The notes beneath the pieces are model-generated. The model was not told the DNA's origin. It did no database searches and saw only the letters and a list, made by a program, of their open reading frames with translations. Below are positions 13,426 through 23,829 of a DNA stretch of 33,299 nucleotides, in pieces. The position numbers and the translations under genes were made by a program. The stretch spans positions 1 through 33,299 of the forward strand of contig JALWZS010000036.1 of the NCBI GenBank assembly GCA_027002475.1, written 5' to 3'. The DNA is from a bacterium (GTDB lineage: Bacteria; Patescibacteriota; 4484-211; GCA-002791395). The stretch's first letter is position 1. Each line of letters opens with the position of its first letter.

Positions 13426-13504
13426 CGGGCGCGGCGGGATTTGAACCCACGACCCCCCGATTGGCTATATCGGGTGCTCTCCATCTTACCTGAGCTACGC
13501 GCCC
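13426..13504 (-). tRNA. tRNA gene with abnormal D and anticodon loops, amino acid unassigned
   Basis: The acceptor stem is perfect (GGGCGCG/CGCGCCC), the T arm is normal (GTGGG TTCAAAT CCCGC), the D stem is GCTC/GAGC, and the variable region is GGGTC. Two loops are too long. The D loop has 12 nt, with seven rather than one to three bases between G15 and G18. The anticodon stem CCCGA/TCGGG encloses a 9-nt loop, TATAGCCAA. Forming one more A-T pair gives a 6-bp stem and a 7-nt loop ATAGCCA, with U33 and anticodon AGC (Ala). The Ala identity pair G3-U70 is absent (G3-C70) and the discriminator is G73, so that assignment is weak. CCA is not encoded. Total length is 79 nt without CCA. It has a consensus promoter and a strong terminator, which suggests it is expressed. 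Confidence 0.7.
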
Positions 13505-22638: not shown

Positions 22639-22655
22639 TGGCGGAGGGAGTGGGA
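22639..22655 (-). pseudogene. 3' end fragment of tRNA-Ser (17 nt)
   Basis: The minus-strand sequence TCCCACTCCCTCCGCCA is identical to the last 17 nt (including CCA) of the complete tRNA-Ser at 22959-23046. It begins 4 nt after the stop codon of the GIY-YIG gene. It is too short to be a gene and looks like an attachment-type repeat or a remnant of a duplicated tRNA. Confidence 0.75.
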
Positions 22656-22659
22656 CTGA

Positions 22660-22914
22660 CTACGTTGAAGCTTCGTCAGTTAAAATTCGCTTCTTTAAAA
22701 AGGCTTTCCCTGAACCAGTTTTTAGATACTTCTCTAAGCTTCTTGCAATTTGTTCGTTACTGACAGAAATGTATGCCATTAAAATGATAGGTTGCAGGTA
22801 TGTTGTTGATTTGCTTTTACCCTGCTGATGTTCTGCGAGACGTCTCCTCAGGTTATTTGTTGATCCTATATATAGGGTATTATTGCTACGTTTCAAGATG
22901 TATACGTACCACAT
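22660..22914 (-). CDS. Small GIY-YIG endonuclease-domain protein (copy 2)
   Basis: An 84-residue protein consisting of one GIY-YIG domain. It has WYVYILKRSNNTLYIGSTNN at the start (here YVY...YIG), then LRRRLAEHQQG with the conserved Arg, a His in HQQG, and SLEKYLKTGSGKAF containing the conserved Glu and ending Lys/Gly. The N-terminal extension that an ORF from 23040 would give is just the tRNA-Ser read as protein (MAEWLKA...), so the start is set at the ATG at 22914. These single-domain proteins (UPF0213/YhbQ-like) are common and mostly of unknown role, although the fold is that of homing nucleases and UvrC. It sits directly downstream of a complete tRNA-Ser and ends 4 nt before a tRNA-Ser 3' fragment. 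Confidence 0.8.
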   Translation of the reverse strand: MWYVYILKRSNNTLYIGSTNNLRRRLAEHQQGKSKSTTYLQPIILMAYISVSNEQIARSLEKYLKTGSGKAFLKKRILTDEAST

Positions 22915-22958
22915 GATTATGTGTTTGATGTTCTGCCAGACGAAGCCTTGGCGTAGTC

Positions 22959-23046
22959 TGGCGGAGGGAGTGGGATTCGAACCCACGTTCGCATAACACG
23001 AACACGCTTTCCAAGCGTGCGCCTTTAGCCACTCGGCCATCCCTCC
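22959..23046 (-). tRNA. tRNA-Ser (anticodon GGA)
   Basis: A class II tRNA with acceptor stem GGAGGGA/TCCCTCC, D arm GGCCGAGTGGCTAAAGGC, anticodon stem CACGC/GCGTG, loop TTGGAAA with anticodon GGA (reads UCU and UCC), a long variable arm (GTTCG...CGAAC), normal T arm and discriminator G73 with encoded CCA. A perfect TATAAT lies 21 nt upstream, overlapping the stop codon of the preceding GIY-YIG gene. A 7-bp hairpin (GCCAGAC/GTCTGGC) that includes the CCA end follows it. Confidence 0.95.
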
Positions 23047-23066
23047 TTGCGTTAATGTTCTGTTAG

Positions 23067-23072
23067 ATTATA
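23067..23072 (-). promoter_or_regulatory. -10 box of tRNA-Ser(GGA), overlapping the GIY-YIG stop codon
   Basis: TATAAT on the minus strand, with the TAA stop of GIY-YIG copy 1 inside it. The tRNA promoter therefore lies within the end of the nuclease gene and the two are physically inseparable. The expected -35 region is weak (CTCACT at 17 bp). Confidence 0.6.
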
Positions 23073-23334
23073 CCTTGTCTTCCTTTTTCAGTGAGTTAAA
23101 TATTCTCTTTTTCTCTAGGTAACCTTTTGGGCTTTTAAGAAACCATTCTCTTTTGTATGCCGCTTCTTTGGTTTTATACTCTTCACTATACACTAAAGCC
23201 CAAGGTATGTAAGGCTTAGTGGATTTCGACCAACCTTTATTGTGTTGGTGTAGTCTTCTCTTTAAATTGCTCGTGACGCCAATATAAAATTTATTTTCGA
23301 ATTTTAAACTACTCAGTACGTACAAATAATACAT
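23068..23334 (-). CDS. Small GIY-YIG endonuclease-domain protein (copy 1)
   Basis: An 88-residue single-domain GIY-YIG protein, with MYYLYVLSSLKFENKFYIGVTSN at the start, LKRRLHQHNKGWSKST with the conserved Arg and His, and YKREWFLKSPKGY containing the conserved Glu equivalent region before the basic end. It shares the fold and several motifs with copy 2 (YxYxLxS/KS....YIG.T.NL.RRL..H), but the two are only distantly similar, so they are not a recent duplicate. The start ATG at 23334 has no ribosome site. It is preceded by a tRNA-Ser 5' fragment and followed at once by a complete tRNA-Ser. The stop codon lies inside the tRNA promoter. Confidence 0.8.
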   Translation of the reverse strand: MYYLYVLSSLKFENKFYIGVTSNLKRRLHQHNKGWSKSTKPYIPWALVYSEEYKTKEAAYKREWFLKSPKGYLEKKRIFNSLKKEDKV

Positions 23335-23401
23335 TATGTTGTTGGGCTTTATTCTCCAATGTGTTCAATCGCTACCAAGGCCCAAAGGGCTCCCTTCGGG
23401 A

Positions 23402-23432
23402 CGTGCGCCTTTAGCCACTCGGCCATCCCTCC
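23402..23432 (-). pseudogene. 5' fragment of tRNA-Ser (31 nt)
   Basis: The first 31 nt of tRNA-Ser(GGA), from GGAGGGATGG through the D arm to the 5' side of the anticodon stem (GCGCACG), are repeated exactly, together with the 6 nt before the tRNA (ACGCAA), giving 37 identical bases. The sequence then departs from the tRNA just before the anticodon loop. The break is at the position where introns and homing elements commonly enter tRNA genes. After it comes a short hairpin-rich stretch and then the GIY-YIG gene. Confidence 0.8.
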
Positions 23433-23475
23433 TTGCGTCAAATCACGAATTCCAAATCGCAAACTAGACAAACGG

Positions 23476-23504
23476 ATTATACAGAGTGGCGTTTGGGGTG
23501 ACAA
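23476..23504 (-). promoter_or_regulatory. Promoter TTGTCA-17-TATAAT upstream of the tRNA/GIY-YIG array
   Basis: On the minus strand TTGTCA (23499-23504) and a perfect TATAAT (23476-23481) are exactly 17 bp apart. The predicted start is about 38 nt before the tRNA-Ser 5' fragment, and transcripts would cross the fragment into GIY-YIG copy 1. It may be the promoter of the ancestral tRNA gene. Confidence 0.7.
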
Positions 23505-23551: not shown

Positions 23552-23617
23552 GCGCCATGCCATCGCGGGGCTGACAGAAGGAGCTTCGTTCCTCCACTAG
23601 CCTCGGGCGATTGGTTT

Positions 23618-23739
23618 GTCACTGCGAGGGAGCCCAAGCGACCGCGGCAGTCTGATGCTGTACCTCCGTCTATCGCGAGGTAATCACGTAGTGATTTAAC
23701 GCGGCGCTCTAGACTGTCACGCCTTCGGCTCGCAGTGAC
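23618..23739. repeat. Palindromic intergenic element, MITE-like
   Basis: The ends are inverted: GTCACTGCGAG at 23618-23628 pairs perfectly with CTCGCAGTGAC at the other end (23729-23739), and CAGTCT inside pairs with AGACTG (23711-23716). An internal hairpin AATCACGTAGTGATT is also present. There is no coding capacity. Related pieces occur at 24316-24340 (aactgcgagcgttagcgtggcaatc) and 29128-29155 (gtctagattgccacgcctttggttcgt). This looks like a dispersed, non-autonomous repeat of the type often seen between genes in uncultivated bacteria. Confidence 0.65.
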
Positions 23740-23829
23740 GAAAATGTCAGATTACGTCATCGCAAATCCTCGATTTCCTCCTCGTAATGGCAGATGAAGC
23801 GTCGCTTCCTTTATAAACATAGGAAACAT

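Follow-up and report, generated by a model that had tools for sequence, protein, structure and literature searches.

How does one tRNA gene come to be present as one whole and two broken copies, with a nuclease gene in each of the two gaps? The question is raised by a locus in the window analysed here, i.e. the whole of a 33,299-nt contig (JALWZS010000036.1, assembly GCA_027002475.1) of a Patescibacteriota bacterium, whose genome is a 1.09-Mb bin of 48 contigs (93% complete). On the minus strand the order is promoter, 5' relic of a tRNA-Ser gene, GIY-YIG gene 1 (GIY1), intact tRNA-Ser(GGA), GIY-YIG gene 2 (GIY2) and 3' relic of the tRNA-Ser gene; a preliminary description of the locus had given the same order and strand, and every element was found in its place. 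We consider it likely that the locus holds two homing-endonuclease-like mobile units that target tRNA genes, in which cleavage, homing and the role of the hairpins described below are inferred.

The sigma-70-like promoter (TTGTCA-17-TATAAT, 23476-23504) matches the consensus at 11 of 12 positions, in agreement with the consensus promoter described earlier ahead of the 5' fragment, and presumably drove the resident tRNA-Ser gene originally (a scan of the region found 6 promoter-like sites, as compared to 1.3 ± 1.1 in shuffled sequences). The 5' relic of tRNA-Ser(GGA) (23402-23438) is a 37-nt exact repeat of the intact copy: nucleotides 1-31 of the tRNA are found at 23432-23402, and 6 nt of upstream flank bring the identity to 37 nt (23438-23402). 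The fragment had been said to end at nucleotide 31. Identity does end there, but a clean cut at this point is rejected, since the relic continues with two tandem hairpins (23380-23401, recognised by sequence and fold; TCCCGAAGGGA and GCCCTTTGGGC, i.e. TCCC-GAA-GGGA and GCCC-TTT-GGGC), and past the hairpins the tRNA sequence resumes imperfectly (CTTGGtAGCG, 23370-23379), reaching from about nucleotide 32 to about nucleotide 41 in comparison with the intact tRNA. GIY1 (23068-23334; 88 aa; PF01541, E=3.4e-15) lies upstream of the intact tRNA (5'-type). Its stop codon TAA (23070-23068) falls inside a TATAAT (23067-23072) that had been taken as the -10 box of the intact tRNA; the overlap was confirmed, but no acceptable -35 was found by the scan for this possible -10 box, so a second promoter remains unproven. 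The intact tRNA-Ser(GGA) (22959-23046; ARAGORN; Rfam RF00005, 61.2 bits) has its CCA encoded.

The 3' end of the intact tRNA (GCCA) supplies the 5' arm of a hairpin (22935-22962; GCCAGAC-TAC-GCCAAGGC-TTC-GTCTGGC), which forms the left end of the GIY2 unit; its arms covary, and its TAC/TTC loop is conserved in 29 loci. GIY2 (22660-22914; 84 aa; PF01541, E=8.3e-15) lies downstream of the intact tRNA (3'-type), and its stop codon is inside a right hairpin (22656-22679; CTGAC-GAA-GCTTCAAC-GTA-GTCAG), which comparison with relatives identifies as the inverted counterpart of the left one. The 3' relic (TCCCACTCCCTCCGCCA, 22639-22655) begins at the end of the T-loop and is a 17-nt exact repeat of nucleotides 72-88 including CCA. 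The intact copy is thus identical to both relics where they match, as previously described, and both repeats (37 and 17 nt) exceed those in shuffled controls (no longer than 10 nt).

The Rfam scan of the whole window returned only three tRNA matches and no group I or group II intron, and with no support from Rfam an endonuclease encoded by such an intron was rejected. According to the list of open reading frames in the window, no integrase is found between the tRNA pieces, which enclose GIY-YIG genes only. The genome contains a third stand-alone GIY-YIG gene (contig C30), located between tRNA-Thr and tRNA-Tyr, so that each of the three stand-alone genes is located at tRNA genes; one further Pfam match, the fourth, lies inside a 497-aa UvrC-like frame.

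Both window proteins match PF01541 and are 37% identical to each other. Four residues (Y15, G17, R25 and E61) are invariant in 41 sequences and include the conserved catalytic-type Tyr/Arg/Glu of the GIY-YIG domain. The closest match to the structure model of GIY2 (pLDDT 88.5) is UPF0213 (1zg2), followed by the branched-DNA nuclease Slx1; together with a second single-domain UPF0213/YazA-YhbQ structure (PDB 1ywl), these are the best matches by sequence or fold. The role of UPF0213 proteins, which are encoded on the chromosome in single copy, is unknown, and Slx1 is a eukaryotic structure-specific nuclease that acts with a partner. We note that the single domain of 84-88 aa is without an obvious separate DNA-binding part. 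A phage origin of GIY2 was rejected, as the search of 50,697 phage records gave 0 matches (E≤1e-5) and IMG/VR gave only weak partial matches to the protein and none to the DNA pattern of the right end.

Searches made with the protein alone recover genes linked to tRNA. GIY-YIG genes were collected by a search of 380 Patescibacteria genomes plus fetched regions (the sample for GIY1). Among the resulting 90 genes, 59 have a same-strand tRNA gene within 300 nt (in just 2 others is there solely an opposite-strand one), as compared to about 1.2% expected from tRNA density (binomial P about 1e-89, ignoring relatedness). In a broader set of 184 distinct stand-alone relatives, 124 are beside a same-strand tRNA gene (chance about 1%), 11 are at tmRNA (mostly just downstream of it), 3 at 16S rRNA and 2 inside RNase P RNA, i.e. 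a structured-RNA gene is nearby in 140; no recognised RNA gene was found near the other 44 (38 with both flanks adequate, 6 near contig ends). The P values are rough, since the sequences come mostly from metagenome bins and there is no independence among the sampled proteins. A coincidental gene order, for which we see no argument other than the small size of the genes, is nevertheless already refuted by these counts (59 of 90 same-strand neighbours where about 1% would be expected), and it would leave unexplained why the breakpoints of the fragments recur across phyla; we give it practically no credence. Clades found mostly away from tRNA genes would also have spoken for coincidence in the preliminary description, and this is in general not the case: 19 of the 20 members of GIY2's smallest supported clade adjoin a tRNA gene, as do 7 of the nine in the clade of GIY1. 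The order GIY-YIG, tRNA-Ser, GIY-YIG itself recurs in two loci (L017 and L019), both on short metagenome contigs.

The two types of genes differ in their position relative to the tRNA. Linked genes in the Patescibacteria sample are mostly found immediately upstream of the tRNA, and genes of the GIY1 kind have upstream of them a duplicated 5' tRNA piece of 10-71 nt (Ser, Cys, Gln, Glu, Leu, Pro, Phe, Val, Gly, Asp, Tyr and other isotypes). The break of the piece is commonly occupied by one GC-rich hairpin or by two in tandem; past them the tRNA sequence resumes and runs for several nucleotides ahead of the ATG. Of 43 5' relics, 22 have a perfect stem of at least 6 bp no more than 3 nt away from the break, as compared to 2.7% at random positions. 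The 5' relic in the window shares this layout (hairpins, then resumption), with stems of 4 bp that are too short to enter the count.

For GIY2, a protein-only scan of GTDB contigs found 80 loci, in Patescibacteria, Bacteroidota, Omnitrophota, Ignavibacteria, Planctomycetota, Chloroflexota and other phyla, including the isolates Fodinibius salsisoli and Fulvivirga. Nearly all of the best ~40 relatives are 40-215 nt downstream of an intact same-strand tRNA-Ser of any isoacceptor, and most GIY2 relatives have downstream of their stop codon a 15-18-nt repeat of the 3' end of the host's own tRNA-Ser, at a distance that is mostly fixed (4-5 nt) across phyla. In the GIY2 clade the repeat starts at the T-loop/T-stem boundary, and the same break is seen in most relatives with a 3' relic. 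The ends of the GIY2-clade unit are hairpins that are inverted counterparts of each other, with conserved internal loops (TAC/TTC on the left, GAA/GTA on the right); the left one starts within the 3' end of the tRNA, and the stop codon is part of the right one. Terminal inverted repeats are therefore present in this clade as the left and right hairpins, and are not established for 5'-type units. The 5' arm of the left hairpin consists of the 3' end of the host tRNA and its trailer, whether CCA is present or not. Among 16 distinct pairs of outer left arms, 85% of positions are paired, as compared to 58% (maximum 73%) when the arms are re-dealt among loci; the inner stems of the hairpins covary too. 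Re-dealing ignores relatedness, and the covariation figures are indicative.

Inverted hairpin ends with GAA/GTA loops next to host-matching duplications speak for a transposon-like element, whose nuclease would act on the hairpins as terminal inverted repeats and insert with a 15-17-nt target duplication; the presence of the branched-DNA nuclease Slx1 among the closest solved folds agrees with this. We know, however, of no GIY-YIG enzyme that joins or transfers DNA strands. The insertion points are also specific to a gene rather than scattered, and a simple target duplication fails to explain the foreign tRNAs found in five loci (see below). We regard transposition as unlikely, although it keeps some weight, and prefer homing into tRNA genes.

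Related loci with and without GIY-YIG genes could be compared at three syntenic empty sites, the only ones examined. Complete genomes of genus g13 are syntenic over the upstream 1.2 kb (73-77%). In G136 the site is empty (tRNA-Thr, 7 nt, tRNA-Tyr). In G007, tRNA-Thr is followed by a hairpin-split 5' Tyr relic, a GIY-YIG gene, a second hairpin-split 5' Tyr relic and the intact tRNA-Tyr; in G030 it is followed by a hairpin-bearing resident 5' Tyr half, a different intact tRNA-Tyr, a hairpin and the resident 3' half, which runs from the anticodon on. A tRNA-Leu/Pro pair of the same genus is 7 nt apart in G007 and about 400 nt apart, with a GIY-YIG gene, in G030. In genus g74, synteny returns about 29 nt past the tRNA-Pro of the empty G089. 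The tRNA-Pro of G074 is identical; it is preceded by two 5' relics with hairpins and followed by a GIY-YIG gene and a 3' half that has the same hairpin (TCCGTCAGCTGACGGA) in place of its T-arm. Insertion at a specific target and absence from empty alleles are demonstrated by these three comparisons and by the fixed T-loop break in tRNA-Ser. The earlier proposal that GIY-YIG genes repeatedly entered tRNA genes with a working copy kept is hence supported by the tRNA linkage, the conserved unit ends and the occupied and empty sites. Comparison of sequences thus establishes the linkage to tRNA genes, the conserved ends, the duplicated or split targets, the patchy presence and the lineage-specific targets.

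In G002, a member of the same family, the orthologous tRNA-Ser(GGA) is about 390 nt from the counterpart of the window's upstream 154-aa gene, and the locus has no intact GIY genes; just a broken piece of an N-terminus (MQFYYVYVIKSQLDETLY*) is left of them, and a hairpin of the left type is kept. Relics without GIY-YIG genes, which according to the preliminary description would make the linkage coincidental, do exist (L219 and the tRNA-Tyr locus of G030), but they are rare and adjoin occupied relatives, and for this reason they look like decayed units. DNA searches in the genus of another tRNA-Ser locus (L149) returned tRNA genes without flanking synteny, which are suggestive and were not counted as empty sites.

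The intact tRNA is not always a copy of the broken one. Five loci (L101, L135, L137, L150 and G030) contain a split resident tRNA, whose two relics are complementary to each other, together with a different intact tRNA of the same isotype. In L101, L135 and L150 (tRNA-Ser) and L137 (tRNA-Phe), the acceptor strands of the 5' and 3' relics are complementary to each other at 7 of 7 positions and the intact acceptor differs (e.g. resident GGAGAGG/CCTCTCC and intact GGAAGCG/CGCTTCC in L101); the acceptor at the tRNA-Tyr locus of G030 is GTCAGGT/ACCTGAC. That every intact copy is foreign was considered and rejected, as tRNA-Pro is 100% and tRNA-Leu 98% identical to the empty relative. With native-like copies in some loci and foreign ones in five, both duplication and replacement occur. 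Although the relics are split by hairpins, the intact tRNA alongside usually has the same sequence, and it is recoded in the five loci only.

On the tree of the 184 proteins (a short alignment, with many forks unresolved), the insertion side, where supported by a relic, changes 4 times as compared to 21.6 times (at least 12) when labels are shuffled; for the division into Ser and other isotypes there are 17 changes as compared to 41.3. Side and isotype follow the tree, i.e. target specificity is inherited with the protein. The nearest relatives of GIY1 are 5'-type at tRNA-Ser. GIY1 and GIY2 are of different lineages, each with its own side of the tRNA, and two arrivals at the window locus are therefore supported; separate arrivals had previously been argued from the low similarity of the two proteins, and the phylogeny of side and target supports them.

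It is very improbable, in our judgement, that the GIY-YIG genes are passive passengers, left behind from larger elements after tRNA duplication or the insertion of integrase islands. Integration is known to concentrate at tRNA genes, and the 3' repeat of 17 nt resembles an att site; islands at tRNA 3' ends likewise combine a direct repeat of the tRNA 3' end (17 nt in the window) with a restored tRNA. Tandemly repeated relic segments (in G007, G030 and G074) would also fit duplication. Yet at locus after locus the insert consists of a GIY-YIG gene and hairpins only, with one and the same gene at a fixed distance from the repeat across phyla and with side and target tracking the GIY-YIG phylogeny, and the absence of an integrase between the relics of the window has been noted above. 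As compared to integrase islands, the units have no integrase, measure about 300-350 bp with one nuclease gene, and leave 5'-half relics and hairpins as well.

RNA genes other than tRNA are also occupied. The two insertions in RNase P RNA lie between GCCCCGCACCT... and ...AGGTGCGGGG, a site that we read as the P3 helix/loop, and in L041 hairpins of the GIY2 type flank a unit located at tmRNA. Members at tmRNA or within the P3 loop, together with the co-orientation of the genes with the tRNA and the covarying left hairpin, in which the 3' end of the tRNA is base-paired to the unit, could be taken to mean that the nuclease acts on tRNA or its precursors in cellular RNA processing or defence, and that relics and hairpins are functional RNA parts. 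Presence that is patchy within a genus and clean empty sites fit mobility better, and many isotypes, broken or repeated tRNA pieces and decayed copies favour mobility too; a cellular role thus appears improbable to us. Neither the hairpins at unit ends and in relics, nor the recoded replacement tRNAs, nor the tmRNA, 16S rRNA and RNase P RNA targets were part of the preliminary description.

The homing model that we prefer can be put as follows. Two minimal units, each of about one single-domain GIY-YIG gene with hairpin-forming ends, would have entered one tRNA-Ser(GGA) gene. Targets are structured-RNA genes, chiefly tRNA genes, at lineage-specific positions (the T-loop for the GIY2 clade; for the GIY1 kind, the anticodon/D-arm region or, in other members of that kind, the T-loop). 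The nuclease would cut a tRNA gene that has no unit, and the break would be repaired from an occupied donor, so that the unit is copied in, with the tRNA-derived sequence at the unit edges serving as homology; the resident gene would persist as a 5' and/or 3' relic. Viability would depend on an intact tRNA, either regenerated by duplication or imported as a different tRNA of the same isotype, and outcomes without a working tRNA would not survive. The probable role of the hairpins is to label the unit ends for the nuclease and/or to keep the relics from being cut; given the Slx1-like fold and the stable hairpins, a structure-specific nuclease step is plausible. DNA cleavage, homing by recombination, the function of the hairpins and rescue as the selected advantage are all inferences. 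We note that the intact tRNA usually still carries the presumed target, and how the donor escapes cutting is unexplained unless the tRNA is recoded.

Synthetic cleave-and-rescue and homing-rescue drives combine a nuclease that breaks an essential gene with a linked, working recoded copy. L101, L135, L137 and L150 resemble them in having a nuclease and a recoded working copy; the GIY-YIG units differ in being natural, tRNA-based and of a single GIY-YIG domain, with cutting and rescue inferred. Whether the units are an undescribed mobile class that breaks tRNA genes and regenerates or carries a (sometimes recoded) tRNA, and thus a natural cleave-and-rescue drive with sister forms at tmRNA, RNase P RNA and 16S rRNA, is in our view evenly balanced; a categorically separate class is possible if cleave-and-rescue is demonstrated.

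Among natural systems, the nearest functional analogue is SegB of T-even phages, a free-standing GIY-YIG homing endonuclease encoded among tRNA genes (PMC2988022), which cuts inside tRNA genes at the motif RAWTSGAAC (PMC13096335). Its gene is likewise found between tRNA genes without an intron, and by our reading the reverse complement of its motif, GTTCSAWTY, matches the T-arm consensus where the GIY2-clade relics begin. SegB differs in being phage-borne and is no close relative (GIY2 had no phage match at E≤1e-5), and the accessible text on SegB mentions neither tRNA relics nor hairpin ends that covary nor a replacement tRNA. In CPR bacteria, GIY-YIG genes are found in 16S and 23S rRNA insertions that match neither intron type, and insertions are located at the tops or bases of stem-loops (PMC11270868). 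They are likewise nuclease genes in structured-RNA genes of the same bacterial group; three of our GIY-YIG relatives are at 16S rRNA. That study covers rRNA only, without mention of tRNA, and its inserts lie within the RNA gene, whereas the units studied here break the tRNA and keep an intact copy alongside. Short GC-rich single or tandem hairpins, possibly mobile, are found in or near genes of fungal and sponge mitochondrial DNA (PMC2800124); the GIY-YIG hairpins differ from them in lying at the breaks of tRNA relics beside a nuclease gene and, in GIY2 units, in being conserved inverted ends. The literature searched gave no account of GIY-YIG units that target tRNA genes and come with relics, with hairpins or with replacement tRNAs, and since subscription journals and preprints were mostly not covered, novelty is provisional; this kind of element is widespread and apparently undescribed.

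tRNA genes are essential and generally do not tolerate insertions. GIY-YIG units have colonised them in many phyla, chiefly in the streamlined Patescibacteria, with a functional tRNA kept each time. If our reading is true, these would be the smallest tRNA-targeting mobile units known, a natural precedent of nuclease-plus-rescue gene drives and a source of tRNA gene turnover and of tRNA replacement between lineages, and they would account for abundant GIY-YIG proteins of unknown role. The layout also explains an annotation artefact, namely open reading frames that start with a translated tRNA-Ser (MAEWLKAHAWKA...).

GIY-YIG genes adjoin tmRNA genes at 11 loci of the compared relatives (L041, L056, L058, L061, L062, L064, L066, L073, L131, L152 and L180), lying directly downstream of the tmRNA in most of them, and the tmRNA-linked GIY-YIG gene of L041 has the same hairpin ends as the GIY2 unit of the window. 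RNase P RNA genes are interrupted by GIY-YIG genes in two Patescibacteria genomes (loci L105 and L161; 1163–1639), at a shared position that is apparently the P3 helix.

In the window, an ORF (22660–23040, minus strand; beginning MAEWLKAHAWKA...) starts within the tRNA and continues into GIY2; ORF fusions of this type in databases are likely annotation artefacts. Directly upstream of the GIY-YIG/tRNA-Ser locus lies a MITE-like segment (23605–23780, minus strand) bounded by inverted GTCACTGCGAG and CTCGCAGTGAC. A tRNA gene at 13426–13504 (minus strand) was found by an Rfam match (47 bits) and missed by ARAGORN.

Broken tRNA genes were also observed without a GIY-YIG gene. At L240 in a genus g13 genome (G030:C1, ~52858–53139), the resident tRNA-Tyr is broken at its anticodon and the two halves enclose an intact tRNA-Tyr of different sequence; no GIY-YIG gene is adjacent. 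A solo tRNA-Ser(GCT) 5' relic with an intact copy downstream (L219; G287:C5:101332–101398) likewise has no GIY-YIG gene, and is probably a decayed unit. Close to the tRNA-Pro locus, a dispersed repeat of ~80 nt occurs at L255 (query 1718–1798) and at more than 10 sites across the genus g74 genomes G074/G089.
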